Shown piece after piece: positions 22,942 through 44,724 of a DNA stretch of 64,000 nt. This DNA is from Curtobacterium sp. BH-2-1-1 (lineage in GTDB: Bacteria > Actinomycetota > Actinomycetes > Actinomycetales > Microbacteriaceae), in assembly GCF_001806325.1 (NCBI RefSeq), contig NZ_CP017580.1:372001-436000 (forward strand), in the 5' to 3' direction. The position numbers were made by a program, and so were the translations under genes. Under the pieces are notes generated by a model. That model was given only the letters and a program-made list of their open reading frames with translations, had not been told where the DNA came from and did no database searches. Position 1 is the first letter of the stretch, and every line of letters starts with the position of its first letter.

Positions 22942-23426
22942 CAGGCGTCGGTCCCGACCGGGGCCGACCCGTCGTAGTGGCAGATCGCCGCGACCTTCGA
23001 CGCGCTCGCGGACGACGTGTCGAAGGTGTAGCCGAGCCACTCCTTCGCCATGCGCCGGGCGACCTCGACGCCGACGACGCGCTGGCCCATGCAGAGGACC
23101 TGGGCGTCGTTCGACAGGATCGAGCGCTCGACGCTGAACGAGTCGTGCGCGGTGACGGCCCGGATGCCGGAGACCTTGTTCGCGGCGATCGCGACGCCGA
23201 GTCCGGTGCCGCAGATCAGGATCGCCCGGTCCGCCTCGCCGCTCGCCACCATGCGTGCGGCGTCGACGGCGACGTGCGGGTAGGCGGTGTGCCCGTCCGC
23301 GTCGACCCCCACGTCGGTGACGCTGACCACGCGCGGGTCCGTGGCGAGGTCGGCCTTGATGATCTCCTTGTAGTCGAACCCGGCGTCGTCGGAGCCGACG
23401 ACGATGCGGAACTGCTGCTCGGTCAT
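22941..23426 (-). CDS. derI: D-erythrulose-4-phosphate isomerase (RpiB family)
   Basis: 161 residues of the RpiB/LacAB fold. The catalytic cysteine C72 is in [14 protein letters not shown] and an early GSDDAGF is the phosphate-site motif. RpiB proper isomerises ribose 5-phosphate. In erythritol, threitol and apionate operons the paralogue DerI makes D-erythrose 4-phosphate from D-erythrulose 4-phosphate, which would enter the pentose phosphate pathway. The start at 23426 is 10 nt from the lerK stop. Confidence 0.87.
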
Positions 23427-23436
23427 GGGGTCTTCC

Positions 23437-26546: not shown

Positions 26547-26650
26547 GATGACTCCTGCTCGGGTGGGGTGGTGCTCCGGTCGGCTGCTGCGCCGGGGACG
26601 GAGGTGACGCATCGGTGCGCACGGACCAGTGTGCGCGGTCACTCCAAACT

Positions 26651-26675
26651 TGTCAACCGGTTGACCATTCGGTGC
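26651..26675. promoter_or_regulatory. FadR-type operator over the transporter promoter
   Basis: Contains TCAACCGGTTGA, a perfect 12-bp palindrome, as part of GTCAACCGGTTGACCATTCG. On the minus strand the same bases give TTGACA (26656-26651), a plausible -35 box for the operon, so binding would repress. Confidence 0.7.
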
Positions 26676-26702
26676 CGCCACGGTTCGGCAGGGAGTCCCA
26701 CC

Positions 26703-26728
26703 GCAACCGGTTGACCGACCGGTACGCT
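26703..26728 (+). promoter_or_regulatory. FadR-type operator and -10 box of the regulator gene
   Basis: GCAACCGGTTGACCGACCGG, the sister of the element at 18772, followed at once by TACGCT (26723-26728), which ends 6 nt before the regulator ATG. This fits a leaderless, autoregulated gene. Confidence 0.7.
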
Positions 26729-26734
26729 CACTGC

Positions 26735-27475
26735 ATGCCCGCGTTCAGCCCGGACGACCCGCTCAACATCCGCCTCGAACTCGAGTCGGTGCCGACGGGC
26801 TCCCCCGCCTCCGAGGTCGCCCGACAGCTCGTCTCCCTGCTGACCGCCGGCGACCTGGCACCGGGTTCACGCCTGCCCTCGGAGCGGGTGCTGGCCGAAC
26901 GGCTCGGGGTCGGTCGGTCCGCCGTGCGAGAGGCCCTCGCGGCGCTCGAGATCCTCGGCATCGTGCAGATCCGCCCGGGTTCCGGCACGTACCTGCAGGG
27001 CGGGACCTCGGACCTGCTGCCGACGACCCTGTCGTGGGGGCTCATGCTCGCGTCGAACCGGACCCGGGAGCTGCTCGAGGTCCGGTCGTCGCTCGAACGC
27101 ACCGCGGCGATCCTCGCCGCCCAGCGTGCGACGCCGGCGCAGCTCGACGAGCTCCAGACCTACATCGACCGGCAGCACCAGGCGCTCGACGACCCGGACG
27201 CCTTCATCGACGCCGACGTCCGGTTCCACGTGCTGCTCGCCCGCTCCGCCGGGAACGACGTGCTCGCCGACCTGCTGCAGAGCCTCCGCTCGATGCTCAG
27301 CGTGTGGGTCGGCCGTCGTGTCCGGACCCGCCAGGCCACCGAGGCCGCGTACGAGGAGCACCGTGCGATCCTCGAGGCGCTCCGGGCCGGGGACGTGCTC
27401 GCGGTGCAGCGGGCGATGGACGACCACATGGCCACGGCGAGCGCCCGCATCGAGCACGCCGGCCCCGCCGACTGA
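26735..27475 (+). CDS. FadR-subfamily GntR regulator of the apionate cluster
   Basis: 246 residues. An N-terminal winged helix (ASEVARQLVSLLTAGDLAPGSRLPSERVLAERLGVGRSAVREAL) is followed by an FCD ligand domain with the expected metal-site residues (DADVRFHVLLARSAGN, later DDHMATA). FCD proteins usually respond to organic acids. It is divergent from the transporter and has an operator at its own promoter, at the transporter promoter and at apnL. It is therefore very likely the regulator of the whole block 17924-26546, probably released by a pathway intermediate. Confidence 0.9.
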   Translation: MPAFSPDDPLNIRLELESVPTGSPASEVARQLVSLLTAGDLAPGSRLPSERVLAERLGVGRSAVREALAALEILGIVQIRPGSGTYLQGGTSDLLPTTLSWGLMLASNRTRELLEVRSSLERTAAILAAQRATPAQLDELQTYIDRQHQALDDPDAFIDADVRFHVLLARSAGNDVLADLLQSLRSMLSVWVGRRVRTRQATEAAYEEHRAILEALRAGDVLAVQRAMDDHMATASARIEHAGPAD

Positions 27476-27679: not shown

Positions 27680-28366
27680 ATGCACACGCACCGGGAGCCC
27701 TCCGACACGACCGCACGCAGCTGGTGGGAGGCCCGCTACGCCGAGCGCGACGGGATCTGGTCGGGGCGGGTGAACGCGGTGCTCGCCGACGTCGCGTCGT
27801 CGCTGCCCGCGGGACGCGCGCTGGACCTGGGCTGTGGCGAGGGCGGCGACGTCGTCTGGCTCGCCCGGCAGGGGTGGGCGACCACCGGGGTGGACCTGTC
27901 GGTGACGGCGGTCACCCGCGGGGCCGGGGCTGCCGTCACCGCCGGGCTCGAGGAGCGGACGGCGTTCGTCGCGGCCGATCTCGGCTCGTGGGACACCGCG
28001 GCGCGGTTCGACCTCGTCACGGCGTCGTTCCTGCAGTCGTGGCCGGTCGAGATCCCGCGTGGGGCGATCCTGCGGCGGGCGGCCGGGTTCGTGGCGTCCG
28101 GTGGGCACCTGCTCGTGACGGCGCACGCCGCGCCCCCGCACGGGGACCTGCCCGAGGAGATGCGGGCGTACCGCTTCCCGACGCCGGCGGAGGACCTCGC
28201 GGCGCTGGGGCTCGACGACGGGTGGGAGGTCGTCGCCGCCGAGCTCCGGCCGCGCACCGCGGTGACGCCCGAGGGAGCGCCGCACGGGGTGCTCGACAGC
28301 GTGGTGCTGGTCCGCCGCCGCCCCCTCAGCGAGGCAGGGGCAGGGGCAGCGGCACCGAGGCAGTGA
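27680..28366 (+). CDS. Class I SAM-dependent methyltransferase
   Basis: 228 residues. The SAM-binding motif LDLGCGEGGD lies near residue 49, preceded by WWEARYAERDGIWSGRVNAVL, which is common to a group of small tellurite-resistance-like methyltransferases. The acidic end of strand 2 is in TTGVDLS. The substrate is unknown. Its last 41 bp overlap, in convergent orientation, the end of the next gene, in a region rich in GGCAGGGGCA-type repeats. Confidence 0.82.
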   Translation: MHTHREPSDTTARSWWEARYAERDGIWSGRVNAVLADVASSLPAGRALDLGCGEGGDVVWLARQGWATTGVDLSVTAVTRGAGAAVTAGLEERTAFVAADLGSWDTAARFDLVTASFLQSWPVEIPRGAILRRAAGFVASGGHLLVTAHAAPPHGDLPEEMRAYRFPTPAEDLAALGLDDGWEVVAAELRPRTAVTPEGAPHGVLDSVVLVRRRPLSEAGAGAAAPRQ

Positions 28367-29249
28367 ACGCCCGGACCACCCGGTCGACGACGTCCGTCGC
28401 CGGGGCGTCCCACACGGCCTGGTTGAAGATCTCCACCTCGACGTCACCGGCGTACCCGGCGGCAGTCACGGCAGCGGTCACCGGCCCGAAGTCGATGTGC
28501 CCGTCCCCCATCACACCGCGGGAGAGCAGCGGGTCAGCGGCTATCGGGGTGAGCCAGTCGCACACCTGGTAGCTCGCGATCCGCCCGGCGGCACCGGCGC
28601 GGGCCACCGAGGCCGCGAGTGCCGGGTCCCACCAGACGTGGAACGTGTCCACGACCACACCGACGGCAGCGGCCGGGAAGGGCGCCGCGAGGTCGAGGGC
28701 CTGCGCGAGGGTCGACACGACGGCCCGATCGGCGGCGTACATCGGGTGCAGGGGCTCGACGGCGAGCTGGACGCCCGCGTCGAGGGCGTGCGGGACGAGG
28801 TCGGCGAGGGCGTCGGCCACGCGGTCCCGGGCGTCGATCAGGTCGCGGGACCCCTCGGGCAGTCCTCCGGCGACGAGCACGAGCACCGGCGCGGACCCGG
28901 GCGCGCCGGCCTCGGCCAACGCCGCGGTCTCGTCGATCGCCCGGCGGTTGTCGTCGAGTGCCCGCTGCCGTTCGGTGCCGGCCGGGAGGGTGAAGAAGCC
29001 GCCTCGGCAGTGCGAGGACACCCGGAGGCCGGAGTCGGCGACCATCCGCACGGCCTCGGGCAGCCCGACCTCGGCGACGGGCTCCCGCCACGTGCCGATC
29101 GCCTGGACGCCGGCGGCGCGGACGGTGTCGAGGGCGTCCCGGAGCGAGGCGTACTTGATCGTCGCCTGGTTGATCGAGAGCCGCGGATGCGGGGGTGCGG
29201 AGCCCGGGGCGGCCCCGGTCCGCGTGGCGCGGACGACGGGGGTGCTCAC
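28326..29249 (-). CDS. Sugar phosphate isomerase/epimerase-like TIM-barrel protein
   Basis: 307 residues with the xylose-isomerase-like barrel: LSINQATIKYASL at the first strand, then SSHCRGGFF, LAVEPLHPMYAAD, VVDTFHVWWDP and VEVEIFNQAVWD. The Glu, Asp and His at strand ends are expected to bind a divalent metal. It is the last gene of a three-gene chain with a DUF993 protein and a Gfo/Idh/MocA dehydrogenase, overlapping the former by 4 bp at its GTG start. In related actinobacterial clusters such proteins isomerise, epimerise or eliminate from oxidised sugars; which one applies here is open. Confidence 0.82.
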   Translation of the reverse strand: MSTPVVRATRTGAAPGSAPPHPRLSINQATIKYASLRDALDTVRAAGVQAIGTWREPVAEVGLPEAVRMVADSGLRVSSHCRGGFFTLPAGTERQRALDDNRRAIDETAALAEAGAPGSAPVLVLVAGGLPEGSRDLIDARDRVADALADLVPHALDAGVQLAVEPLHPMYAADRAVVSTLAQALDLAAPFPAAAVGVVVDTFHVWWDPALAASVARAGAAGRIASYQVCDWLTPIAADPLLSRGVMGDGHIDFGPVTAAVTAAGYAGDVEVEIFNQAVWDAPATDVVDRVVRAFTASVPLPLPLPR

Positions 29250-30457
29250 GCGACCACCCCGGAGAGCGGGCGGTCGGCGGGGGTCGAGCCGCGCCTCCTG
29301 GCCATCACGGGCACACCGGACACGGTGAGCAGGTCGTGCCACCGCGACGCCGCGAGCGACGGGTCCTCGAGCGCGCCGCAGGCGTTCGCGAGCCGGACGG
29401 TCTCGGACAGGTGCGGCAGGGAGCGGCCGGCGTGCTGACCGCCCACCATGGCGAAGGCACCCTGGTGGCCGTTCAGCCAGGCGAGGAAGGCGATGCCGGT
29501 CTTGTAGTGCCAGGTCGGGGCGCTGAAGACGTGGCGGGACAGGGCCTCGGTGGGGCCGAGCAGCGCGCGGAAGGCGGTCTCGTCGGGGAGTGCCCGGACG
29601 GCGGCGGAGGCGATCGGCGCCACGGCGGCGAACGCGCCGAGCAGGGCGTCGGAGTGCGTCCGATCGGTCCCGGCGACGAGGTCGACGTAGTGGAAGTCGT
29701 CGCCGGTGAACATCCGGACGCCGGCGGGCAGTTGGGAGCGGAGGGCGACCTCGGCCCGGGCGTCGAGCAGGCTCATCTTGATGCCGGCGACCTTCGACCC
29801 GGCGTCGCCCGTGATGTCGAGCACGGTGTCGGGGCCGTGCTGACCGCCGAAGTAGCCGGCGAGGGCGGGGTCGAACGCCTCCCCCAGCCAGTGCAGGACG
29901 ACGGGGGCGCTCGCCCGCTCGATGACCCTGCGGTAGACGCGGCGGTAGACCGCGGGATCGCTGCCCGCCAGGCGCGCCAGGTGCCGGCTCGCCATGAGCA
30001 CGACCCCCGCGCCGGCGTCCTCGGCGTGGTGGAGCTGCGCGACGTAGGCGTCGACGACCTGCTGCTCGGTGGCGACCTGGTCCGGGAGGTCGTCGGTGTT
30101 CACGCCGACGACGATGCGGCCGCCGACGGACTGCGCCTCGCGGGCGCTGCGGGTGATGAGCTCGCGCGTGGCGGCCGGGTCGAGCCCCATGTTCCGCTGC
30201 GCGGTGTCCATCGCGTCCGCGACGCCGAGGCCCCACGACCAGAGGTGGTGCCGGAAGGCGAGGGTGGCGTCCCAGTCGAGGTCCGCCGGTGCACCCGGCG
30301 TGTTGTCGGCGGCGGTGCGCGGGACGACGTGGGCGGCGGCGTACACGACGCGCTCGGTGAGCGGGGCGGTCGGCTTCGCGGTGGCCGCCACGGCCGGCTC
30401 GCGCAGGTCGACCCGGCTGGTCGTGCCGTCGGGCGCGAGCAGGGTCAGGGTGCTCAT
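29246..30457 (-). CDS. DUF993 protein (dihydrodipicolinate-synthase-like aldolase fold)
   Basis: 403 residues of the DUF993 family, a distant branch of the DHDPS/KDG-aldolase barrels. Recognisable parts are WDATLAFRHHLWSWGLGVADAMDTAQRN, GVNTDDLPDQ, VLHWLGEAF and KVAGIKMSLLD; the lysine in the last is a candidate Schiff-base residue. No characterised member is known to me. The recurrent company of a Gfo/Idh/MocA dehydrogenase and a TIM-barrel epimerase suggests that it cleaves or lyses an oxidised sugar. It overlaps both neighbours by 4 bp. Confidence 0.8.
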   Translation of the reverse strand: MSTLTLLAPDGTTSRVDLREPAVAATAKPTAPLTERVVYAAAHVVPRTAADNTPGAPADLDWDATLAFRHHLWSWGLGVADAMDTAQRNMGLDPAATRELITRSAREAQSVGGRIVVGVNTDDLPDQVATEQQVVDAYVAQLHHAEDAGAGVVLMASRHLARLAGSDPAVYRRVYRRVIERASAPVVLHWLGEAFDPALAGYFGGQHGPDTVLDITGDAGSKVAGIKMSLLDARAEVALRSQLPAGVRMFTGDDFHYVDLVAGTDRTHSDALLGAFAAVAPIASAAVRALPDETAFRALLGPTEALSRHVFSAPTWHYKTGIAFLAWLNGHQGAFAMVGGQHAGRSLPHLSETVRLANACGALEDPSLAASRWHDLLTVSGVPVMARRRGSTPADRPLSGVVA

Positions 30458-31665
30458 GCGCGTGCTCCGACGGTCTCGGCGCTGTCGCCCTGGAGGCGCG
30501 GCTCGGCCCCGGTGGGCAGGGTCAGCTCCGGCAGGTCGATGCGTCGTCCTTCGGAGCTCGAGCGCAGACCGGCCTCCGCGAGCGCCACGCCGCGGGCACC
30601 GGACAGCAGGTCGTAGGGGTGCGGGCGGCCGGCCACGAGGTCGCGCAGGAAGTCCTCCCACTGCGCGCGGAAGCCGTTGCCGAACACCTCGTTGTCGGGG
30701 ACCTCGAGCCACTGCGCCCTGTAGTCGCGGTCGTCCCGCAGGTCGGGGTTCCACACCGGCTTCGGCGTCGCCGTCCGCGGCTGGATCCGACAGCCGAACA
30801 GTCCCGCGACGGCGCTGCCGTCGGTGCCGTCGACCTGGAACTCGACGAGCTCGTCACGGTCGACCCGGACCGCCCACGACGAGTTGATCTGCGCCGTGAT
30901 GCCGCCGGCGAGGTCGAACACGCCGTAGGCCGCGTCGTCCGCGGTCGCCGCGTACCCGGCCCCCTGCTCGTCGGTGCGCTCGTCGATGTGCGTGACCGCG
31001 CGGGCGTACACCGACTCCACGCGGCCGAACAGCTGCTCGAGGACGTAGTTCCAGTGCGGGAACATGTCGACGACGATGCCGCCGCCGTCCTCGCGGCGGT
31101 AGTTCCAGCTCGGCCGCTGCGCGGTCTGCCAGTCCCCCTCGAACACCCAGTATCCGAACTCGCCGCGGACGGAGAGGATCCGGCCGAAGAACCCGGAGTC
31201 GAGGAGCCGGCGGAGCTTCCGGAGGCCGGGCAGGTAGAGCTTGTCGTGCACGACGCCGTTCGGCACGCCGGCGTCGGCGGCGAGGCGGGCGAGCTCGAGC
31301 GCCTCCTCGGATGTCTCCGCCGTGGGCTTCTCGGTGTAGACGGCCTTGCCGGCGGCGATCGCCTTCCGCAGGGCGTCGGCGCGGGCGCTCGTCACGGCGA
31401 AGTCGGCGAAGACGTCCCAGCGGGGATCGGCGAGGGCGGCGTCGAGGTCGGTCGTCCAGTGCGCGAGGCCGTGCCGGGTGGCGATCTCCTCGAGCTTCGC
31501 GGCGTTCCGGCCAACGAGGATCGGTTCGACCTGCAGCCTCGTGCCGTCCGGGAGCGGGAGCCCGCCGTCGTCGCGGATGGCCAGGATCGACCGCACGAGG
31601 TGCTGGCGGTAGCCCATGCGTCCGGTGACGCCGTTCATGATGATGCCGATGGTGCGCGTGGTCAA
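30454..31665 (-). CDS. Gfo/Idh/MocA-family sugar dehydrogenase
   Basis: 403 residues. The N-terminal Rossmann domain starts TIGIIMNGVTGRMGYRQHL; the expected EKP motif is at YTEKPTAET, and the C-terminal domain carries a candidate catalytic lysine/histidine pair (GVVHDKLYLPG). These enzymes oxidise a ring hydroxyl (often C1 or C3) of a sugar or glycoside with NAD(P)+. The start is TTG 31665, with GGGAG 6 nt upstream; an in-frame ATG 12 codons earlier lacks a ribosome site. It is first of the triad and lies downstream of a LacI-type operator at 31708. Confidence 0.87.
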   Translation of the reverse strand: MTTRTIGIIMNGVTGRMGYRQHLVRSILAIRDDGGLPLPDGTRLQVEPILVGRNAAKLEEIATRHGLAHWTTDLDAALADPRWDVFADFAVTSARADALRKAIAAGKAVYTEKPTAETSEEALELARLAADAGVPNGVVHDKLYLPGLRKLRRLLDSGFFGRILSVRGEFGYWVFEGDWQTAQRPSWNYRREDGGGIVVDMFPHWNYVLEQLFGRVESVYARAVTHIDERTDEQGAGYAATADDAAYGVFDLAGGITAQINSSWAVRVDRDELVEFQVDGTDGSAVAGLFGCRIQPRTATPKPVWNPDLRDDRDYRAQWLEVPDNEVFGNGFRAQWEDFLRDLVAGRPHPYDLLSGARGVALAEAGLRSSSEGRRIDLPELTLPTGAEPRLQGDSAETVGARA

Positions 31666-31707
31666 CGCGTGCTCCCTTGCTCGCTGTGGCCCGCTCGCCA
31701 CCGCGGT

Positions 31708-31722
31708 GGAAAGCGCTTGCCG
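31708..31722. promoter_or_regulatory. LacI-type operator upstream of the minus-strand triad
   Basis: GGAAAGCGCTTGCC, centred on the palindrome AAGCGCTT, the typical LacI/CcpA-like half-site arrangement. The same 14 bases recur at 33161. It lies about 43 bp before the TTG start of the dehydrogenase. Confidence 0.75.
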
Positions 31723-31775
31723 GAACCGTACACCACGGCCCGTGCCGACCGCACGCGCGTGTTCGGGTGTGTGCG

Positions 31776-31850
31776 TTCGGGGCCGGGCGTGCGGCGCGGG
31801 GGCGTGGGGGGGGGCGTGCGGGGCGCGGGCCTGGGGCGTGGGCGCCCCGT
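31776..31850 (+). other. G-run tract in the dehydrogenase-lacI interval
   Basis: This intergenic stretch has many runs of three to nine G on the plus strand, and another lies at 31921-31980. Together with the family A palindrome between them they fill the 319-bp interval 31666-31984. No gene is supported. It is a candidate for G-quadruplex formation. Confidence 0.45.
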
Positions 31851-31853
31851 GCC

Positions 31854-31913
31854 ACTTCGTGAGCAGGAATGGTCGGGTCGCGCCACGGCACCCGACCGTT
31901 TCTGCTCACGATC
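31854..31913 (+). repeat. Dispersed intergenic palindrome, family A, copy 3
   Basis: Arms GTGAGCAGGAATGGTCGGGT (31859-31878) and complement (31890-31909) match at 18 of 20 positions. The flanks ACTTC and GATC are the same as in the other copies. Confidence 0.85.
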
Positions 31914-31984
31914 CGGCCGACGGGGATGGGCCCGGGGGCGGGGACCGGCCCGGGCGCGGGGACGGGCGCGGGGCGCCCGGCCCG

Positions 31985-33025
31985 CTAGCGCGCCGTGCTC
32001 GCGCGCAGCACGACCTCGCCGTCGATGGCGCCGTCCGCCTCGAGCCCGAGGGCCCGCCGCACCGCCCGCTCCCCGATCTCCTCGAGGGGCAACCGCACCG
32101 TGCTCAGCGCCGGCACGACGTCGGCGAGCATCCGCACGTCGTCGAACCCCGCGACCCCGACGTCCACCCCCGGGACGAGCCCGCGCTCCCGGATCGCCGC
32201 GACCGCCCCCACCGCCATGAGGTCCGTGACCGCGAACACGCACCGCGGCAACGCCCCCGAGCCCGCCGCAGCCCGGTCGAGCAGCGACACCATCGCCCGG
32301 TACCCGCCGTCCCGCGTGAACTCCGACGGCACCACGGCGTCGTCAGGCACCCGGATCCCGTGGGCGGCGAGGCCCGCGACGAAGCCCTCGTAGCGCGCGT
32401 GCGCGGTGGCGAGCGACGGATCGCCGGCGAGCACCGCGAACGAGTCGTGCCCCTGTTCCACCAGGGCCCCGGCGAGCGCCGCAGCACCGCTGAGGTTCCG
32501 GATCACGAGTGGTTGCACTCCCGACACACCTGCCACGGCGCCGTCGAGGTCGGACACGAGCGCCGACACCCCCGCGCCGGCCGCGACGAGTCCGGAGACG
32601 GCCGACGCCAGCTCGGCGCCACCACCGAGGCGACGGCTCACCGCGAGCACCACGGCCCGCGGCCGGAGCCCCGCGACGACGCCGAGGACGGCCGCCTCGC
32701 GCGACGGGTCCCCTCCCGTCGACGTGATCGTGACGACGAGCCCGGCGTCGTCGGCGGCGCGGATGGCCCCGGCGGCGATGGCCGCGAAGTACGGATCGGC
32801 GATGTCGCCCACGACGAGCGCGAGCGTCGTGGTGGTCCCGCGGGCGACCGCCTGGGCCTGCACGTTGGCGGTGTACCGGAGCTCCTGGGCCGCGGCGTGG
32901 ACGCGGTCGACCGACTCCTGCCGGACCTTCCGCACGCTGCCGTTGAGCGCGCGCGACGCGGTCGCGAGCGAGACGCCTGCCCGCGCAGCCACGTCGGCCA
33001 GGGTGACCGAGCTCCGTTCGGGCAT
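31985..33025 (-). CDS. LacI-family transcriptional regulator
   Basis: 346 residues. The N-terminal HTH (VTLADVAARAGVSLATASRALNG) and hinge helix are followed by a periplasmic-binding-protein-like sugar domain (LALVVGDIADPYFA, VAGFDDVRMLADVVPALSTVRLP). It is encoded between two sugar gene blocks, each with the operator GGAAAGCGCTTGCC, so it most likely represses both and is released by a sugar derivative. ATG 33025 is preceded by GGAGG within TGGAGGCGCGACATG. A longer frame upstream has no ribosome site. Confidence 0.9.
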   Translation of the reverse strand: MPERSSVTLADVAARAGVSLATASRALNGSVRKVRQESVDRVHAAAQELRYTANVQAQAVARGTTTTLALVVGDIADPYFAAIAAGAIRAADDAGLVVTITSTGGDPSREAAVLGVVAGLRPRAVVLAVSRRLGGGAELASAVSGLVAAGAGVSALVSDLDGAVAGVSGVQPLVIRNLSGAAALAGALVEQGHDSFAVLAGDPSLATAHARYEGFVAGLAAHGIRVPDDAVVPSEFTRDGGYRAMVSLLDRAAAGSGALPRCVFAVTDLMAVGAVAAIRERGLVPGVDVGVAGFDDVRMLADVVPALSTVRLPLEEIGERAVRRALGLEADGAIDGEVVLRASTAR

Positions 33026-33160
33026 GTCGCGCCTCCAGTCCGTCGGCTCCGCGCTGTGTGGCGAGGGCTGTCTGTGGCGAGGATAGCGATTTCCCGCCCG
33101 CCGGGGCGGAGCCGCGGCAACGGATCGAGCCGTCACGTCACAATGTCCAAACATTCTGCA

Positions 33161-33199
33161 GGAAAGCGCTTGCCAGAATCACCGGGCGTCGTGTAGACC
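33161..33199 (+). promoter_or_regulatory. LacI-type operator and promoter of the sugar ABC operon
   Basis: The operator GGAAAGCGCTTGCC (33161-33174) overlaps TTGCCA (33170-33175), a fair -35 box. An 18-nt spacer follows, then TAGACC (33194-33199). This gives a transcript start near 33206 and a leader of about 68 nt. The overlap implies repression by the LacI protein. Confidence 0.7.
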
Positions 33200-33273
33200 T
33201 TGTCTCCTCGGCCGAGACACCCCGAACGCTCGCCCACGGCAGACGCCAGTGGTCCCGAACGAAAGCAGTGACG

Positions 33274-34557
33274 ATGAAGTCATCCAAGAAGATGCTCGCG
33301 CTCGCCGGCGGCATCGCCGCACTGGCGCTCCTGAGCGGCTGCGCCTCCGGCAGCGGTTCCGGCGACGGCGGCAAGGTCGACCAGCTGACCTTCTGGCTCT
33401 CCACGTCGACGGCGCAGGAGAAGGGCTACCAGGACCTCGCGACCGACTACGAGAAGAAGACCGGCGTCACGGTCAAGATCGTGAACCTGCCGTACGACGG
33501 GCTGCAGACGAAGCTCCGCGAGTCGGCGCAGGCGAACTCGCTGCCCGACGTCGTGCGAGCCGCGGGCATCGACCCGATCTGGACCGGCAAGACCGTCGAC
33601 CTGGCCTCGATCGTGGACGACGACGCGAACAAGATCGACAAGGACATCATCGCGAAGGACGACGACGGCAAGGTCACCTCGATCCCGTCCGACGTCACCG
33701 CGGCGGGCCTGTTCGTGAACAAGTCGCTGTTCGACAAGGCCGGCATCGCCTACCCGACGGACCCCGCGAAGGCCTGGACCTGGGACGAGTTCCTGCAGGC
33801 CGCCGACCAGGTGAAGGCGAAGACCGGCGCGAAGTACGACCTGGTGTTCGACTCCTCGCCGTCCCGCCTGCGCGCCTACATGTTCACCAAGGGCACCGAC
33901 TTCATGCAGCAGGAGAAGGACGGCTCCTTCCCGACCGACGCGAAGACCGTCTCGGCGCTGCAGGACTTCGCCGACATGAACGACGACTCCACGATGCCGA
34001 AGTCGGTGTGGACGAGCGGGCAGGATCCGAACGCCCTGTTCAAGAGCGGCCAGGTCGTCGCCTACTTCTCGGGCGTCTGGCAGTCGTCGGACTTCGCGTC
34101 GAACATCACCGACTTCGACTGGGCCAGCGCCGCGACCCCGGCTGACCCGACGCACGCCACCGAGATCAACTACGGCGGCAACATCGTCGGCTTCGAGAAC
34201 TCGGACGCCCGCGGGACCGCGGCGAAGAAGTTCATCGACTACATGTACGAGCCGACGAACTACGCCAAGCTCGTGACGACGAACGGCTTCCTGCCGGTGG
34301 AGTCCGGGCTGGACATCAGCTACCCGTTCGAGTCGCAGGCCGCCAAGGACTCCTTCGCGCTCTACCAGAAGGAGATCGACGCGGCGGACCCGATCTCGAG
34401 CTCCTACGCCAAGGAGAGCGCGAAGTGGGCGGTCGAGGGCAAGGAACTCGGCACCGACCCCACCACCGCCGAGGTCGGCAAGCTCATCAACGGGCAGCAG
34501 TCGGCCAAGAAGACCCTCGAGACGATCACGAAGTACTACGAAGAGCACGTCGGATGA
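33274..34557 (+). CDS. ABC sugar importer, solute-binding lipoprotein
   Basis: 427 residues with a lipoprotein signal ending in the lipobox LLSGC (near residues 19-23). The rest is a family 1 extracellular solute-binding protein (DQLTFWLSTSTAQEKGYQDL, later VAYFSGVWQ and YGGNIVGFENS). It is membrane-anchored and captures a sugar for the two permeases downstream. No ATPase gene is present, so it probably uses a shared MsiK-type ATPase, as is common in Actinobacteria. The substrate is not readable. Confidence 0.92.
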   Translation: MKSSKKMLALAGGIAALALLSGCASGSGSGDGGKVDQLTFWLSTSTAQEKGYQDLATDYEKKTGVTVKIVNLPYDGLQTKLRESAQANSLPDVVRAAGIDPIWTGKTVDLASIVDDDANKIDKDIIAKDDDGKVTSIPSDVTAAGLFVNKSLFDKAGIAYPTDPAKAWTWDEFLQAADQVKAKTGAKYDLVFDSSPSRLRAYMFTKGTDFMQQEKDGSFPTDAKTVSALQDFADMNDDSTMPKSVWTSGQDPNALFKSGQVVAYFSGVWQSSDFASNITDFDWASAATPADPTHATEINYGGNIVGFENSDARGTAAKKFIDYMYEPTNYAKLVTTNGFLPVESGLDISYPFESQAAKDSFALYQKEIDAADPISSSYAKESAKWAVEGKELGTDPTTAEVGKLINGQQSAKKTLETITKYYEEHVG

Positions 34558-34635
34558 CGGATCGGGGTCGGGTGCACGCACCCGACCCCGACGCCGTCCC
34601 CCCGAGCAACACCGCGACGAACGAAGAGGATCATC

Positions 34636-35610
34636 GTGAGCATCCCCACCGCAGCCGGCGACGTGCAGACCGCCGTGCCCACCCCGGTGCCGCCCCGCCG
34701 GCCCGGCGCCGCGAAGACGGCGAAGCGCCGCCGCTCCGGCGTCAGCAAGCCCGTCCTCGCCCCGATCCTCTTCGTCAGCGTCAACGCGGTGCTGTTCGTC
34801 GTGTTCTTCGTGTGGCCCGCGGTCATCGGCCTCGGCTACTCGTTCACCGACTACAACGGTGTCGTCGCCCCGAAGTTCATCGGGCTCGAGAACTACTTCG
34901 AGCTGTTCGCCGACGACACCTTCTACGCGGCACTCCTCCGGACGTTCCTCTACGCGATCGTGGCGGTACCGCTCGGCTTCGTGCTCTCCCTGTCCATGGC
35001 GCTCATGCTCACGAGCCCCGCGGCGAAGGGCCGGAGCGTCGCCCGCATCGTCTTCTTCGTGCCGTGGCTCATCTCGCCGATCGTGACCGGCGTCATCTGG
35101 CGGTGGATGTTCGGCGAGAACTTCGGGCTCGCGAACTTCGTCATCGAGTCCTTCGGCGGCAAGGCCGTCCCGTGGCAGTCGAACGCGGACCTGTCGCTGC
35201 TCGTCGTGGTGTTCGCCACCGCGTGGGCCGGAGCCGCCTTCAACATGCTGCTGTTCGTGGCCGCGATCCGGAACGTGCCGCAGTCCTACTACGAGGCGGC
35301 GTCCCTCGACGGCGCCGGCGCCTGGCACCAGTTCCGCTACATCACGCTGCCGAGCATCGCACCGACGTCGTTCATCGTGGTCCTGCTGTCGTCGCTCGGC
35401 GCCTTCAAGGAGTTCGCGACGATCCAGGCACTCAACGGCGGCGGTCCCGGCACCGACAACAACCTGCTCGTGCAGTACATCTACACGAACGGGTTCCAGA
35501 ACGCCCACATCGGCTACGCGAGCGCGGCGTCGATGGTCCTCATGCTCATCCTCATGGCCATCGCGCTCATCCAGCTGGCCGTGAACCGTCGGACGGAGGC
35601 CCGCCGATGA
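34636..35610 (+). CDS. ABC sugar permease, MalF/UgpA type
   Basis: 324 residues with six membrane spans. The EAA loop (EAASLDGAGAWHQFRYITLP) contacts the ATPase. It starts at GTG 34636 with AGAGGA upstream and overlaps the second permease by 4 bp. It is 78 bp after the binding-protein gene. Confidence 0.92.
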   Translation: MSIPTAAGDVQTAVPTPVPPRRPGAAKTAKRRRSGVSKPVLAPILFVSVNAVLFVVFFVWPAVIGLGYSFTDYNGVVAPKFIGLENYFELFADDTFYAALLRTFLYAIVAVPLGFVLSLSMALMLTSPAAKGRSVARIVFFVPWLISPIVTGVIWRWMFGENFGLANFVIESFGGKAVPWQSNADLSLLVVVFATAWAGAAFNMLLFVAAIRNVPQSYYEAASLDGAGAWHQFRYITLPSIAPTSFIVVLLSSLGAFKEFATIQALNGGGPGTDNNLLVQYIYTNGFQNAHIGYASAASMVLMLILMAIALIQLAVNRRTEARR

Positions 35611-36521
35611 CCGCCACCCTGCCCAGCGCCTCCGGCGCACCCGCGACCGACGTCACGTCGGGGACCACCAGGAACACGACCAGGAACAAGCGCCTCGACG
35701 GCCCGCCCCGCCCCAGGGCCATCGCCGCCACCGCCCTGCTCTGGGTCTTCATCATCGCGTTCGGCTTCCCCGTGCTCTGGTTCGTCCTGAGCGCGTTCAA
35801 GCCCGGCGGCGAGCTGTTCTCCTACCCGCTCACCCTGTTCCCGAAGACGTGGTCGGTCAGCGGCTTCACGGAGGCCTGGGCGAGCTACGACTTCGCCCGC
35901 TACTTCGGCAACACCGTGATCGTCGCACTGGTCACCACCGTCCTCACCGTGCTGGCGAGCGCGGCGACGGGGTACGCGCTGGCGAAGTACGACAACAGGT
36001 GGCTCAAGGTCTTCTTCGTCTGCATCCTCGCGACGACGATGCTCCCGACCGAGGTCATCCTCGCGCCGACGTTCATCGTGATCCGCGACCTCGGCATGTA
36101 CGACTCGCTCGCCGGCATCATCGTGCCGTCGGTCATCACCGCGACCGGCATCTTCATGTTCCGGCAGTTCTTCCTCACCGTGCCGGACGACCTCGTCGAG
36201 GCCGCCCGCATCGACGGCGCGAGCGAGTTCGGCATCTTCTGGCGGATCATGCTGCCGATCTCCCGCCCGATCATGCTGACGCTCGCGATCTTCTCGTTCC
36301 AGTGGCGGTGGAACGACTACATCTGGCCGCTGCTCGTCCTCAACGACCCGCACCAGTTCACGATCCAGATCGCGCTGCAGAGCATCGTCGGCGCGGAGAA
36401 CGTCAACTGGACGGTCCTGCTCGGCGCGTCGGTGATCTCGATCATCCCGCTCGTCCTCATCTACCTGGTCTTCCAGAAGTACGTGAACGGCGCGGACCTC
36501 AACGCGGGCCTCAAGGACTGA
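35607..36521 (+). CDS. ABC sugar permease, MalG/UgpE type
   Basis: 304 residues and six membrane spans, with the EAA loop EAARIDGASEFGIFWRIMLP. The N-terminal tail is Thr/Arg-rich. It pairs with the preceding permease; the next gene's ATG shares one base with its stop (TGATG). Confidence 0.92.
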   Translation: MTATLPSASGAPATDVTSGTTRNTTRNKRLDGPPRPRAIAATALLWVFIIAFGFPVLWFVLSAFKPGGELFSYPLTLFPKTWSVSGFTEAWASYDFARYFGNTVIVALVTTVLTVLASAATGYALAKYDNRWLKVFFVCILATTMLPTEVILAPTFIVIRDLGMYDSLAGIIVPSVITATGIFMFRQFFLTVPDDLVEAARIDGASEFGIFWRIMLPISRPIMLTLAIFSFQWRWNDYIWPLLVLNDPHQFTIQIALQSIVGAENVNWTVLLGASVISIIPLVLIYLVFQKYVNGADLNAGLKD

Positions 36522-38212
36522 TGGGCTTCCTCGACCTCGCCGGCACCGCGGCCGACGCCGACGCGGCCCGGCTCCGGCAGGCCACCGACGCCCCGGAGAC
36601 GCTGCAGCACCGCGAACTCATGGCGCGCGCCCTCACCCTGGTCGGCGCGTGGGTCCGGAACGAGCGGACGGGAGGCGCGGCTCGCCCCACCGACGACGAC
36701 CTCGCCACCGCGCACGGCTGGGTCCGGCACCTCGCCACCCGGCAGTCCCCCGGCGGCACGTTCGTCGGCGGCGACAACGTGCTCTCCCCACCCGACTCCG
36801 CGTTCACGGTGAACGACGTGTGCGACGCGCTCGAGCTCCTCGCGCCGTACCGTGCGACCGTGCCGACGGCCGCGGCGCTGGCCGACGACCTCGACGAGAT
36901 CGTGCACCGCGCGACCCCGGCGTTGCTGACGGGTGGCGTGCACACCCCGAACCACCGGTGGGAGATCGCGGCCGCACTCGCCCGCGTCCACCGGCTCCAC
37001 CCCGACCCGGCCCTCGTCGAGCGGATCGACGAGTGGCTCGCCGAGGGACCGGACATCGACGCCGACGGCCTGTGGTCCGAGCGCAGCCCGAACTACGCCG
37101 CGGCGGTCTCGTGCCCGTCCTTCCTCGTGCTGGCGTCGGTGCTGGGGCGACCCGAGCTGCTCGACCCGGTGCGCCGCTCGCTCGACGCGACACTCGCGCT
37201 GCTCCTGCCCGACGACACCGTCGAGACCGTGCAGTCCCGACGGCAGGACCAGTCGCGGCCGTTCGGGATCGGACCGTTCGCACCCCTGCTCTGGCACGTC
37301 GCGGTGCTCGACGGCCGAGCCGACCTCGCCGCCGTCGCCGCCCGGGCAGCGGTCGCCGACACCTGGCAGCCCGGCGCCGTGGCCGCACGGGCGATGACCG
37401 ACCCGGTGCTCGAGCGGCCGCTGCCGGCGGGCGCACCGCTCCCCCGGGGCACCTCGACGTTCCGGGCGGCACGGCTCGTCCACGTCCGCGAGGCCGACCG
37501 CGACGTCGTGCTCTTCGCCGGCTCGGACGTCCCGGCGGCAGGACACGTCCGCTCCGGGCTCGCGAACAGCCCGACGTTCCTGCGGGTACTCGCCGGCGCC
37601 GTCGTCCTCACCGACGTCCGGCTCTCGCGGGAGTTCTTCGGCCTCGGCCCGTTCCGCCCGACGAGGCTCGAGGACCTCGGCGCCGGCCGGTTCCGGCTGA
37701 CCGAACGCGTGTCGGCCGGCTACCACCAGCCGCTCGCACCCGAGCACCGGCTGGCCGACGGTGACTACGCGCTCGGCGACGAGGGGCGGTTCTCGGCGTC
37801 GATGGCGTTCGGCAGCCGGACCGCCGACGAGGTGGCGCTCACGACGACGGTCGACGTCGCCCTGACGGCCGACGCGGTCACGCTCGACATCGAGACCGCC
37901 GGGGCCGACGTCCCGTGGTCGCTCCAGCTGACGTTCCGCGACGGGGGTACGTTCTCCGGTGTGAGCACCGATGCCGCCACCGCCGAACGCGTCCTCCTCA
38001 CGGGGACCGCTTCGTACCGCGTCGGCACCGACACCGTGACGTTCGGGCCGGGCAACGGCTCCGGCCCCGGGCAACCCGCGTTCTACGCGCCCGGTCAGGA
38101 CTACGCGTTCCTCGGCGGGACGGACCGGCCGACGGGCTCGCACGTCCACGTCACCGGACGCGCGCCGGGCCGGACCCGTGTCGTGATCGGGACCCCGTCG
38201 GTGGGGTCGTGA
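36521..38212 (+). CDS. Heparinase/lyase-like alpha-toroid protein of unknown substrate
   Basis: 563 residues, no signal peptide, so cytoplasmic. Residues ~1-330 look like an alpha/alpha toroid (HTPNHRWEIAAALARVHRL, ERIDEWLAEGPDIDADGLWSERS, QSRRQDQSR). The last ~230 are a beta-sandwich. I recognise the NHRWE...ERS pattern from a widespread uncharacterised family often labelled heparinase II/III-like. The operon context (importer upstream, sugar oxidoreductase downstream) suggests an intracellular lyase or hydrolase acting on an imported oligosaccharide or uronide. Catalytic residues cannot be assigned with confidence. It overlaps the next gene by 4 bp. Confidence 0.65.
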   Translation: MGFLDLAGTAADADAARLRQATDAPETLQHRELMARALTLVGAWVRNERTGGAARPTDDDLATAHGWVRHLATRQSPGGTFVGGDNVLSPPDSAFTVNDVCDALELLAPYRATVPTAAALADDLDEIVHRATPALLTGGVHTPNHRWEIAAALARVHRLHPDPALVERIDEWLAEGPDIDADGLWSERSPNYAAAVSCPSFLVLASVLGRPELLDPVRRSLDATLALLLPDDTVETVQSRRQDQSRPFGIGPFAPLLWHVAVLDGRADLAAVAARAAVADTWQPGAVAARAMTDPVLERPLPAGAPLPRGTSTFRAARLVHVREADRDVVLFAGSDVPAAGHVRSGLANSPTFLRVLAGAVVLTDVRLSREFFGLGPFRPTRLEDLGAGRFRLTERVSAGYHQPLAPEHRLADGDYALGDEGRFSASMAFGSRTADEVALTTTVDVALTADAVTLDIETAGADVPWSLQLTFRDGGTFSGVSTDAATAERVLLTGTASYRVGTDTVTFGPGNGSGPGQPAFYAPGQDYAFLGGTDRPTGSHVHVTGRAPGRTRVVIGTPSVGS

Positions 38213-40191
38213 GCACGGAGCGACCGGCGGCCGGAGACCCGAGCCGCACCGCGCCTCCCGGCATCGTCCTCGTCGGCGCACGCGGCTACGGTCTGCACCA
38301 CCGGGCGACCATCGACCGGCTCGTCGGCCTCGGGGCCTGCACGCTGACGGCCGTCGTCGACCCGACCCTCGACGCCGACGAGGACGGCGGCGTGCCGGTC
38401 GTCCACGACGCCGCCGCAGCCCGCGCGACCGGCCCGGTCGACGTCGTCGTGGTCGCCGCTCCGATCGCCGCGCACCTCCCCCTCGCCCTCGCCGCCCTCG
38501 AGAGCGGCGCCGACGTCCTCCTCGAGAAGCCGCCGGTCACGACGCGCGGGGACCTGGCGACCCTGCTCGACGCCGAACGACGCAGCGGGCGCGTGGTCCA
38601 GGTGGGGTTCCAGAGCCTCGGGTCGCACGCGCTGCCCGCACTCCGTGACGGGTCGCTCGTCGGGACCGTCCGGTCCGCCTCGGCCGTCGGCACCTGGACG
38701 CGCGACCAGGCGTACTGGGACCGCTCCGCCTGGGCCGGCCGCCGCAGGGTGGACGGGGTCGACGTCCTCGACGGCGTCGTCACGAACCCGCTCGCCCACG
38801 CCGTGGCGACCGCCCTCGCGCTCGTCGGCTGCCGTCGAGCCGACGAGGTGGCGCGCGTCGAGGTCGAGCTGTACCGGGCGAACGCGATCGAGGGCGACGA
38901 CACCTCGGCCGTCCGGGTCACGACGACCGCCGGACGCGAGGCGACCGCGGCGCTCACCCTGTGCGGGCCGACCGAGGTCCTCCCGAGCGTGCGGGTCCGT
39001 GGCACGACCGGGAGCGCGGTCCTCGGGTACACGACCGACGAGGTCACGATCGACGGGGTGACCCACGGCCTCGGGCGCACCGACCTGCTCGAGAACCTGC
39101 TCGCCCACCGGTCCCGTGGCGACGCGCTGCTCGTGCCGCTCGTGTCGACCGGCGCGTTCGTCGAGGTGCTCGAAGCCGTGCGGGCGACCGAACCGGTGCA
39201 GATCGACCACCCGTGGGTGACGTGGGACGGTGAGGGGCCTGCGCGTCGGCCACTCGTCACGGACGTCGAGGCGGTCGTCGACCGCGCGGCGGACCAGCGC
39301 GCGCTGTTCTCCGAGGTCGGCGCGCCCTGGGCGCACGCGGACCGCGACGAGGTGCTCGACGAGCTCGTCGTCGACGGCGTCGCGGTCGCGTCGGTCCTCG
39401 ACGGCGCGGGGACGGTCCCGACGTCTTCGCCCCGCCCGTACCTGCACCCGGTGCGGACCCTCGGCGGCACGGTCGTGAGCGCCCACCACCCGCCGGACCA
39501 CGACTGGCACTGCGGCGTCGGGTTCGCGATCCCCGACCTCGACGGCGTGAACTGCTGGGGCGGCCGGACGTACGTCCACGGCGAGGGCTACGTCTGGCGC
39601 GACGACCACGGCAGCGCCACGGTCGTGCACGCCGAGCACCACGGCCCCTCCCTGCGGCAGGAGGTCGTCTGGCGCGGTCCCGACGGCCACGTCGCCCTGC
39701 ACGAGGACCGGGCCCTCGCCTGGCGGGCGGTCGACACCGGGTGGGAGCTCACGTGGTCGTCGTCGTTCCGCGTGCCGGGGGACGCGGTCGTCCGGCTCGG
39801 CGGCCCGGGCAGCAACGGTCGGGTCGGGGCCGGGTACGGCGGCTTCACCTGGCGCTTCCCGCCGTGCGCCGACATCGCGGTCCGGACGGCGACGGCCCGT
39901 GGCGAGGACGCGGTGCACGGGTCGGTCGCGCCGTGGGTCGAGTGGTCGGCGACGTTCGAGGGCGTCGGCGCCACGATCCGGTTCGAGGCCCTCGACCACG
40001 ACGACCCGTGGTTCGTCCGCGCCGCCGAGTACCCCGCGGTCGGCTCGGCGCTCGCCTGGCGCACCCCGGTGCTCGTGCACCCCGGGGTGCCCCTCGTCCG
40101 GTCGTTCCGGGCGACGGTCGCGGACGGCCCGGTCCGGCACGGCCCGGGCGAGCACGGCCCGGACCGGTCCGCCAATACGCTGGTGGGATGA
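38209..40191 (+). CDS. Fusion: Gfo/Idh/MocA oxidoreductase + PmoA-like (DUF6807) domain
   Basis: 660 residues. Residues ~15-335 form a Gfo/Idh/MocA dehydrogenase (IVLVGARGYGLHH Rossmann start, LLEKPPVTTRGDL with the EKP motif, VTNPLAHAV). Residues ~400-645 are a PmoA/DUF6807-type beta-sandwich (PRPYLHPVRTLGGTVVSAHH, DWHCGVGFAI, VNCWGGRTYV, YGGFTWRFP). The PmoA-like domain is often encoded next to Gfo/Idh enzymes; here the two are one chain, which argues that they act on the same substrate. GTG 38209 overlaps the previous stop. The function of the second domain is unknown. Confidence 0.82.
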   Translation: MSTERPAAGDPSRTAPPGIVLVGARGYGLHHRATIDRLVGLGACTLTAVVDPTLDADEDGGVPVVHDAAAARATGPVDVVVVAAPIAAHLPLALAALESGADVLLEKPPVTTRGDLATLLDAERRSGRVVQVGFQSLGSHALPALRDGSLVGTVRSASAVGTWTRDQAYWDRSAWAGRRRVDGVDVLDGVVTNPLAHAVATALALVGCRRADEVARVEVELYRANAIEGDDTSAVRVTTTAGREATAALTLCGPTEVLPSVRVRGTTGSAVLGYTTDEVTIDGVTHGLGRTDLLENLLAHRSRGDALLVPLVSTGAFVEVLEAVRATEPVQIDHPWVTWDGEGPARRPLVTDVEAVVDRAADQRALFSEVGAPWAHADRDEVLDELVVDGVAVASVLDGAGTVPTSSPRPYLHPVRTLGGTVVSAHHPPDHDWHCGVGFAIPDLDGVNCWGGRTYVHGEGYVWRDDHGSATVVHAEHHGPSLRQEVVWRGPDGHVALHEDRALAWRAVDTGWELTWSSSFRVPGDAVVRLGGPGSNGRVGAGYGGFTWRFPPCADIAVRTATARGEDAVHGSVAPWVEWSATFEGVGATIRFEALDHDDPWFVRAAEYPAVGSALAWRTPVLVHPGVPLVRSFRATVADGPVRHGPGEHGPDRSANTLVG

Positions 40192-40673
40192 GCACCGAGG
40201 ACTGGGAAGCCCGCGTCGCCGCACTCTGGGCCGACGACACCATCGACGACCAGGAGCGCATCGACCGCATGCGGGTCCTCGCCGACGCCGCACCCCACCC
40301 GGCGCTGGGCGCGTTCGAGCTCGGCGGGGCGAACGACTCCGGCGGCCACGAAGCCGAGGCCGACGTCCACTACACGGCCGCGACGGCGGCCGGGCTCGAC
40401 ACCGTGGACCCGACGAGGGCGGCGCAGATGGTCGTCCAGCACGCCTCGACGCTCCGCAACCTCGGCCGGGTCGACGAGGCGATCACGATGCTCCGCGACG
40501 CCCCCGAGCACCCGGCGACCGGCGCAGCGCCGAAGGTGTTCCTCGCACTCGCGCTGCACAGTGCCGGTCGCCACGACGAGGCGCTCCGGGTCGCGATCGA
40601 GGCGGTGGAGCCGACGCTCCCCCGGTACCACCGGTCGGTCCGGGCCTACGCGGCAGCCCTCACCGACGCCTGA
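40188..40673 (+). CDS. Small tetratricopeptide-repeat protein
   Basis: 161 residues with TPR-like helix pairs (HPALGAFELGGANDSGGHEAEADVHYTAA, then AAQMVVQHASTLRNLGRVDEAI and FLALALHSAGRHDEALRVA). Its ATG overlaps the stop of the fusion gene, yet TACGCT (40176-40181) ends exactly 6 nt before the ATG, so it may also have its own leaderless promoter. It probably has no direct role in the sugar pathway. The partner is unknown. Confidence 0.8.
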   Translation: MSTEDWEARVAALWADDTIDDQERIDRMRVLADAAPHPALGAFELGGANDSGGHEAEADVHYTAATAAGLDTVDPTRAAQMVVQHASTLRNLGRVDEAITMLRDAPEHPATGAAPKVFLALALHSAGRHDEALRVAIEAVEPTLPRYHRSVRAYAAALTDA

Positions 40674-44032: not shown

Positions 44033-44121
44033 GATGGACCTGCTCTCGTCGTCGAGGAGCGTGCGGACGAGCGCGAGCGTACGCTCACGTCCACCGGCCC
44101 GTCCGACGAAGGAGTCGCGAG

Positions 44122-44724
44122 ATGCCCGCACGGTTCGTGTACTGGATCAACGCCTCGCTCGACGGCTTCGTCGAGACCGAGGCCGGTGAGCACAGCGGCG
44201 TCGAGGGCCCGGAGTGGATCCGGATCGACGAGACCGTGCACCGCGAGTTCAACCGCCGCGCGCGGGCGATGACGCTGTCCGTCGAGGGCCGCATCGTCCA
44301 CGACATGATGGACCCGTTCTGGCCCGACGCCCGCACCGACGAGTCCCTGCCCGCGTACATGCGCGAGTACGGCGAGATCTGGACCGAGCAGCCGAAGGTC
44401 CTGGTCTCCCGGTCGCGGACGGCGGCGGACCACAACACGCGGATCATCGGCCGCGACGAGGACGCGATCGACGAGCTCGCCCGCATCCGCGCCGAGTCCG
44501 ACGGCGACGTCGGTGTCGGCGGTCCGAGCATCGCGACGCAGCTGCTCGACGCCGGACTCCTCGACGAGCTGATGGTCTTCACGCACCCGGCCGTCCTCGG
44601 GCGTGGGCGTCCGCTGTTCGACCCGCCGCCGTCGGGTGCGCGACCGCCGTTGGTCCTCGACCTGCTCGAGCAGCAGCGGTGGGACAACGGGGTGACGCTG
44701 CACCGGTACGACCTCCGGCGCTGA
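44122..44724 (+). CDS. Dihydrofolate-reductase-like (RibD C-terminal fold) protein
   Basis: 200 residues of the RibD/DHFR-like reductase family: FVYWINASLDGFVE at the start, then VGVGGPSIATQLLDAGLLDEL (nucleotide-binding GG), then VFTHPAVLGRGRPLF. Members are NADPH-binding and mostly uncharacterised. GGAG lies 7 nt upstream of the ATG. The stop is directly adjacent to that of the convergent lipoprotein gene. Confidence 0.85.
   Translation: MPARFVYWINASLDGFVETEAGEHSGVEGPEWIRIDETVHREFNRRARAMTLSVEGRIVHDMMDPFWPDARTDESLPAYMREYGEIWTEQPKVLVSRSRTAADHNTRIIGRDEDAIDELARIRAESDGDVGVGGPSIATQLLDAGLLDELMVFTHPAVLGRGRPLFDPPPSGARPPLVLDLLEQQRWDNGVTLHRYDLRR

Follow-up and report, generated by a model that had tools for sequence, protein, structure and literature searches.

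Two arms around one LacI gene

The 64,000-nucleotide stretch analyzed here (hereafter the window; positions 372,001 to 436,000 of NZ_CP017580.1 from the plant-associated bacterium Curtobacterium sp. BH-2-1-1) carries two arms of genes flanking one LacI-family repressor gene. A Gfo/Idh/MocA dehydrogenase (GFO1), a DUF993 protein and a TIM-barrel isomerase/epimerase (TIM), termed the triad below, lie on the minus strand, and an ATP-binding cassette (ABC) importer, a protein of an orphan family (toroid) and a Gfo/Idh dehydrogenase fused to a DUF6807 domain lie on the plus strand. The question is whether the two arms belong together and, if so, what they do. We regard it as very probable that both arms constitute one LacI regulon of two operons, judging from the identical putative operator at both promoters, which argues for one signal. 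The single LacI-controlled, sugar-type system of two arms that an earlier note had read from the letters alone is supported, and the identical palindromes are kept in all 16 two-arm loci. A shared operator-like site thus ties three families for which no function was found, namely DUF993, DUF6807 and toroid, to one regulon.

The palindrome scan of the intergenic stretches of the locus revealed a 14-bp palindrome, GGAAAGCGCTTGCC, occurring letter for letter at 31708–31721 and 33161–33174. The former, putative operator 1, is 44 bp upstream of GFO1 (30454–31665, minus strand, TTG start), and the latter, putative operator 2, is between the LacI gene (31985–33025, minus strand; start from the codon-model gene call) and the gene of a carbohydrate ABC solute-binding protein (33274–34557, plus strand; PF13416/PF01547; start refined). 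The repressor possesses both a helix-turn-helix and an effector domain (PF00356, 52.7 bits; PF13377, 92.7 bits). Besides this pair, a dozen weaker G+C-rich palindromes were found in the intergenic stretches, and the whole window contained no further match to GGAAAGCGCTTGCC with up to two mismatches (0.4 expected from shuffles). The loose pattern GNAAGCGCTTNC, with no mismatch allowed, was found at seven places in the genome, which is a single contig of 3.80 Mb; the GAAAGCGCTTGC form occurred solely at the two sites of the locus, and the remaining five matches were inside genes.

To follow the sites across genomes, we used 148 DUF993 loci, of which 113 remained after reduction at 88% identity, with neighbours counted within 9 kb. 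The sample is mostly of Actinobacteria near the query, because one locus set comprised the best 80 of 566. For counting operators, the nine loci lacking GFO1 were excluded (n = 104). Exactly two strict sites were present in the stretch examined of each of the 16 Curtobacterium two-arm loci, one 41–44 bp before GFO1 and the other between the LacI and binding-protein genes; in one of them (L107), the called LacI start overlaps the second site. In C. pusillum (L115/L127), where the ABC cassette is missing, it is the Gfo/Idh-DUF6807 gene that the second site precedes, at a distance of 15 bp. The two sites stand at the divergent arms in L149, where GFO1 as called probably extends too far at its start, and before the binding-protein gene and GFO1 in L156. 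Altogether, the strict pattern was near the GFO1 start in 56 of the 104 non-redundant loci, at a median distance of 44 bp. Another 37 strict sites in these loci include nine before this type of binding protein, eight before LacI genes, three before another binding protein, two before Gfo/Idh genes and one before a DUF6807 gene. In an unbiased count, no other 8-bp palindrome was as frequent before GFO1 as AAGCGCTT, which was present in 55 of 104 loci where 1.8 would be expected; the next-best was found in 15 loci against 12.7 expected. A LacI gene was detected in 88 of the 113 loci, on the same strand in 61.

Several observations weigh against this assignment. The genome contains the loose pattern at 7 places and its reversed control at 14, so that the pattern is the rarer of the two and only form, position and conservation favour an operator. 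AAGCGCTT is missing before GFO1 in 49 of the 104 loci; AAGCGCAT or its reverse was found in 11 of these, a count for which no chance rate was computed, and neither in 38. The stretches examined around three toroid-ABC cassettes (L215–L217) contained no AAGCGCTT-type operator. Finally, AAGCGCTT is a core frequent in the LacI family, and the assignment of the sites to this particular LacI is therefore not proven.

Conservation of the triad

The three minus-strand genes, GFO1, DUF993 (29246–30457) and TIM (28326–29249, the last gene), overlap by 4 bases at each junction. Across the 113 loci, DUF993 was accompanied by TIM in 109 and by GFO1 in 104; the exceptions to the full triad include L071, L118, L119 and L120. 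The three genes adjoin one another in all of the 31 loci L001–L031, albeit GFO1 of L005 is truncated by the contig end. The triad is the core of the system. DUF993 was detected in 44 of 150 Microbacteriaceae genomes and in 22 of 66 Curtobacterium genomes, the nearest named relative being that of C. pusillum (91%; records of the source genome itself were perhaps left out).

The triad is widespread in Actinobacteria and was also found on rhizobial and other plasmids. The gene orders were Gfo/Idh-DUF993-TIM-glycerate kinase (L122), Gfo/Idh-DUF993-glycerate kinase (L124, pAO1), Gfo/Idh-DUF993-TIM (L125) and SDR-type reductase-DUF993-TIM (L126). Sinorhizobium meliloti pSymA (L123) bears reductase-DUF993 with a glycerate kinase gene four genes upstream, and TIM, which is missing from the annotation, came next in our own gene call. 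Each cluster of neighbours was assigned by Pfam through a single representative, and glycerate kinase was the commonest extra enzyme (27 of 113 loci, 19 of them within three genes). A ThuA (trehalose utilisation) cluster was near the triad in eight loci, as were clusters of MR/MLE enolase-type proteins and 2-hydroxyacid dehydrogenases in six loci each.

Three loci of the survey deserve a remark of their own. L145 (WNZI01000010.1), titled Vibrio cholerae 35D, carries a DUF993 locus 63% identical to that of the window, with LacI and DUF6807, and is probably either contamination from an actinobacterium or a record under the wrong name. In L117 (genome G175, completeness 65), DUF993, LacI, GFO1 and TIM match in several pieces, perhaps owing to sequencing-error frameshifts. 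In Actinoplanes (L169, 5913–8714), a 934-amino-acid protein with many RTX calcium-binding repeats is encoded directly upstream of the triad.

DUF993 as a candidate C–C lyase

The DUF993 protein matched PF06187 at 506 bits against a cut-off of 24, over positions 3–382 of its 382 residues, and its close relative in the PDB is 4dnh. Searched with a profile of 34 aligned sequences, the PDB yielded 4dnh and then chains of dihydrodipicolinate synthase (DHDPS; 6p90, 3qze and 3noe) at E-values of 0.013–0.038. In the profile alignment to DHDPS, a superfamily of class-I aldolases (PF00701), the invariant Lys227 is paired with the lysine of GIK, with the GDD segments in register. Asp84, Arg88, Asp122, His189, Asp253 and Asp254 are likewise invariant in the 34 sequences, and His189 appears, in our reading, to occupy the place of the DHDPS tyrosine. 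As Lys227 aligns with the Schiff-base lysine of DHDPS, we somewhat favour regarding DUF993 as a remote DHDPS relative and probably a class-I C–C lyase, with Lys227 as the candidate catalytic residue.

The relationship is a marginal one, and part of the evidence speaks against it. The profile-profile comparison (hhalign) of the 34-row alignment gave an E-value of 0.0022 but a probability of 13%. A flagellar protein was among the profile hits at 0.021, which makes the E-values of the DHDPS chains marginal, and nothing reached significance when the profile comparison was run on a 6-row alignment. By hmmscan at E ≤0.001, the protein matched DUF993 alone and not PF00701; the DHDPS tyrosine and the GTTGE-type motif, as we read the alignment, appear not to be kept. 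The label "aldolase-like" given earlier to DUF993 nevertheless gains some ground from the similarity around the catalytic lysine. Beta-elimination by DUF993 was also considered and set aside, as the similarity is to aldolases. In the open-licence PMC literature, we found no function for DUF993, and nothing on the dehydrogenase-DUF993-TIM triad or on retro-aldol cleavage of inosose. If DUF993 is a new C–C lyase, a widespread catabolic branch would gain its key enzyme.

The TIM protein (PF01261, AP_endonuc_2, 105 bits; start refined) has 7vpf, 3ju2 (S. meliloti SMc04130) and 3qc0 as close PDB relatives. By profile, its nearest characterized relative is the inosose isomerase IolI (1i60, E 1.5e-20). 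The conserved Glu165, Asp201 and Glu271 presumably fit the metal site of this fold. For GFO1 (PF22725, PF02894 and PF01408), the close PDB relative is 3oqb, followed by a scyllo-inositol/L-glucose dehydrogenase (5ya8, E 5e-17), and the EKP motif at residues 112–114 is kept. The curated NCBIfam models, scored against their own cut-offs, were not reached: the IolG equivalog gave 54.4 (GFO1) and 32.9 bits against 355, and the levoglucosan dehydrogenase and disaccharide 3-dehydrogenase (BT_2159) models gave 59.7 and 20.9 bits where 650 was required. The solved relatives 4dnh, 3oqb and 3ju2 are listed under names without a specific function.

A separable second arm

Downstream of the binding-protein gene, the plus-strand arm comprises the genes of two ABC permeases, one of UgpA/MalF type (34636–35610) and one of UgpE/MalG type (35607–36521; start refined), both assigned by PF00528 and NCBIfam relatives, then toroid (36521–38212) and the Gfo/Idh-DUF6807 fusion (38209–40191). 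Gene starts in the locus were shortened relative to the longest open reading frames, and a codon-model gene call was used. The Pfam scan of the proteins of the window placed the dehydrogenase, DUF993, TIM barrel, LacI, ABC importer and Gfo/Idh fusion where the earlier note had put them. In the case of the Gfo/Idh-PmoA fusion described there, the fused domain (PF14100) is present and the name is outdated: the family is currently called DUF6807, and "PmoA" persists in sources.

Co-occurrence of the arms in other genomes, on which the earlier note had staked its proposal in advance, was found. Among 36 Curtobacterium genomes searched for both proteins (the source genome included), all 14 with toroid also carry DUF993; of the 22 without toroid, DUF993 was detected in one (G175). 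The identical two-arm order was present in 16 of the 22 DUF993-positive Curtobacterium (the window, L095–L107, L113 and L116), an arrangement that is far from chance. The remaining six are variants: L115 and L117 retain triad, LacI and Gfo/Idh-DUF6807 with no ABC or toroid gene at the locus; L111, L112 and L114 carry Gfo/Idh-DUF6807 directly after the triad and a different ABC set; and L110 combines a toroid cassette of 47% identity with triad, glycerate kinase and Gfo/Idh-DUF6807. Including L110, three arrangements other than that of the window also place the toroid cassette beside the triad. In Microbacterium sp. 11MF (L149), which follows the same two-arm plan, binding protein-permeases-GH38-toroid diverges from GFO1-DUF993-TIM-LacI-glycerate kinase-DUF2264, and in a metagenome-assembled genome (L156), Gfo/Idh, ABC, toroid, DUF6807, GFO1, DUF993, TIM and LacI are set in a single direction.

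The ABC-toroid cassette is nonetheless separable, and the two arms are not an obligate unit. The cassette was found without the triad in the 17–20 kb around L108, L109, L215, L216 and L217, and triads lacking the cassette are common. Among the 150 Microbacteriaceae genomes, toroid was detected in four (up to nine candidates being scored per genome in the profile search), all with DUF993 and DUF6807; three of the four are those of L215–L217, in which the cassette is not beside the triad. As triad and operator are both absent from L215–L217, the cassette need not belong to the same pathway, which tells against a single system. In L215 and L217, the ABC-toroid-Gfo/Idh cassette is beside another regulator, ROK-like by eye, and the LacI operator is absent; the cassette there appears to have been rewired.

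The toroid gene, encoding 563 amino acids, is real, with 1089 homologues at E ≤0.001 among 8000 scored candidates. No internal stop was found in 18 matches, and one TGA was seen in the match of another search (G045). In 49 homologues, TPNHRWE (142–148), SERS (186–189), Y192 and SRRQDQ (239–244) are invariant. No Pfam model matched toroid, the 49 family members hit two chance Pfam models only, and no solved structure in the PDB matched convincingly. The name "Heparinase" was attached to one of the 120 homologues listed. The designation "toroid lyase" thus stays a guess of the earlier note.

The DUF6807 domain has a predicted galactose-mutarotase-like fold by fold similarity. The DUF1080-like jelly roll expected for DUF6807 was not among the 50 matches listed, which is no proof of its absence. 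The open-licence PMC literature contains one passing mention of DUF6807 and no function. In the 150 Microbacteriaceae genomes, 30 possess both DUF6807 and DUF993, 14 DUF993 only, 5 DUF6807 only and 101 neither (Fisher p = 6e-16); the total for DUF6807 is 35 and not 36 because a match below the cut-off in G018 was dropped. Of the 30 genomes with both, 10 carry the two genes no more than 12 kb apart. The association is to be discounted in two respects: the p-values are uncorrected for phylogeny, and DUF993 is associated with the control AraA as well (40, 4, 56 and 50 genomes; p = 5e-6), so that part of the signal reflects a sugar-rich lifestyle. Among the 96 AraA-positive genomes, the corresponding DUF6807/DUF993 counts were 30, 10, 5 and 51 (p = 2.5e-11). 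RhaA was useless as a control, being found in 2 of the 150 genomes, and AraA was taken in its place.

Proposed pathway and its alternatives

We put forward the following pathway as, on the whole, somewhat more probable than not, with repression by this LacI, the chemical steps, the substrate and the product all inferred. Without inducer, LacI would sit on the two identical operators and keep both promoters shut; an imported sugar-like inducer would bring both operons to expression. The plus operon would supply an ABC importer taking up an oligosaccharide or glycoside, toroid and the dehydrogenase-mutarotase-like fusion, of which the products may serve import, trimming and the handling of keto-sugar anomers. 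GFO1 would produce a ketone by oxidizing a hydroxyl of the ring or chain, the IolI-like TIM barrel would shift or epimerize the carbonyl, and DUF993 would form a Schiff base on Lys227 and break a C–C bond by retro-aldol cleavage. The glycerate kinase genes near the triad in many relatives point to a three-carbon acid as a probable product (glycerate, via hydroxypyruvate or tartronate semialdehyde), albeit the one glycerate kinase copy of the genome studied here is ~0.9 Mb from the locus.

The clues to the substrate conflict, which suggests that many glycosides feed one core, and any single substrate class is doubtful. Genes of GH38, GH3, GH95, GH42, GH51, GH43, PL8, PL11 and DUF2264 were found near triads or toroid cassettes. 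A route for uronates or sugar acids, being a special case of the preferred pathway, is possible but tentative: toroid would act on uronides, GFO1 would oxidize the uronate, and DUF993 would cleave a keto-aldarate to a C3 keto acid plus tartronate semialdehyde or hydroxypyruvate, which would pass through glycerate to glycerate kinase. The clusters of glycerate kinase, 2-hydroxyacid dehydrogenase and MR/MLE enolase-type proteins agree with it, as do the DUF993-DHDPS relation and a PL8 and a PL11 lyase in one locus each (L059 and L057). On the other hand, other loci bear neutral-sugar hydrolases instead (GH38, GH42, GH51, GH95 and GH3), and the carboxylate-binding motif of DHDPS appears, in our reading, not to be kept in DUF993. 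The other special case, a cyclitol route bypassing IolE/IolD, we rate slightly lower. GFO1 would oxidize an isomer or a glycoside of inositol, giving an inosose, TIM would isomerize it, and DUF993 would open the ring by retro-aldol cleavage. The locus shares with myo-inositol catabolism (iol, IolG and IolI) the logic of a Gfo/Idh dehydrogenase plus an IolI-type isomerase, with DUF993 in place of the diketone hydrolase; IolI and the scyllo-inositol/L-glucose dehydrogenase are the nearest characterized relatives of TIM and GFO1, and in L156 and L217 the surroundings of the toroid cassette include iolB, iolC and iolD, scoring above their curated cut-offs. However, the score of GFO1 is far from the IolG cut-off, and no gene of the arms passed an iol equivalog cut-off or is an iol gene (the genome beyond the arms was not searched for iol). 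Moreover, iol genes were seen by eye in two of the eight toroid loci not of the window type, which gives no rate, as a gene-by-gene scan did not extend to the remaining six. A more specific reading is improbable, though worth stating: DUF993 would be a new Schiff-base retro-aldolase opening a keto-ring (inosose or keto-sugar) that the dehydrogenase of the triad produces and the IolI-like isomerase adjusts, and the Curtobacterium core would be LacI-wired to the importer, an orphan intracellular lyase and the dehydrogenase-mutarotase fusion for glycosyl-inositols, such as plant sphingolipid head groups. These head groups are built of mannose, glucuronate and inositol, and the GH38 mannosidase genes (L149, L216 and L217) and inositol genes (L156 and L217) beside toroid cassettes fit this reading.

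The oxidise-then-eliminate route of the earlier note, in which a Gfo/Idh enzyme oxidizes C3 of a glycoside, TIM beta-eliminates the aglycone, and a hydratase and a reductase finish, is possible but now seems unlikely. Known routes for O-glycosides and levoglucosan combine oxidoreductases with TIM barrels of sugar-phosphate-isomerase type and run through oxidation, elimination, hydration and reduction in Bacillus smithii and Agrobacterium (AtOGE), according to the part of PMC10628242 consulted, and the locus resembles those operons in combining a dehydrogenase with such a barrel. The ThuA clusters and a profile match of TIM to 3-keto-glucoside 4-epimerase (6wn6, E 3.5e-7) also agree. However, the Agrobacterium operon has two TIM barrels (an eliminase and a putative hydratase) and no DUF993 in the part of that source consulted, whereas the arms here have one and DUF993, which the route leaves without a role. 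TIM is nearest to IolI among characterized proteins, and the levoglucosan and disaccharide 3-dehydrogenase models remained far below their cut-offs. The consulted part of PMC9007349, on 3-keto-glycosides, mentions neither "dihydrodipicolinate" nor "Gfo". Least probable of these alternatives, and only just behind the glycosyl-inositol reading, is that two unrelated operons are neighbours by accident: toroid cassette and triad were each found alone, but the operator is identical at both promoters in all 16 two-arm loci and four arrangements join cassette and triad.

Two further regions resemble the preferred two-operon system in part. The SMc04130–SMc04133 region of S. meliloti includes SMc04130, of which the structure 3ju2 is a close relative of TIM, and SMc04132, which we take to be the DUF993 protein of 4dnh. 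The carbohydrate cluster of pAO1 in Paenarthrobacter nicotinovorans shares Gfo/Idh-DUF993 and adds glycerate kinase in the same row, but lists no TIM barrel and is preceded by a GMC oxidoreductase and an aldehyde dehydrogenase. SMc04132, SMc04133 and SMc04135 appear together, with negative values, in one table of PMC12542648, the only paper in the open-licence PMC literature found to name genes of the SMc04130–SMc04133 region.

Neighbouring genes

A TPR_5 gene (40188–40673) shares 4 bases with the end of Gfo/Idh-DUF6807 and may be co-transcribed. On the other side, a separate cluster at 20406–27475 encodes a PGDH_C-type dehydrogenase, an AP_endonuc_2 protein, a triosephosphate-isomerase-like protein, LacAB/RpiB, a Dak1-Dak2 kinase, an MFS transporter and a GntR/FCD regulator, and presumably resembles tetrulose or apionate catabolism. 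The stretch is sugar-rich, with a GH43-family gene at 42152–44131, while 49217–53894 contains a GH4 gene and, after it, the genes of a carbohydrate ABC importer (binding protein and two permeases).

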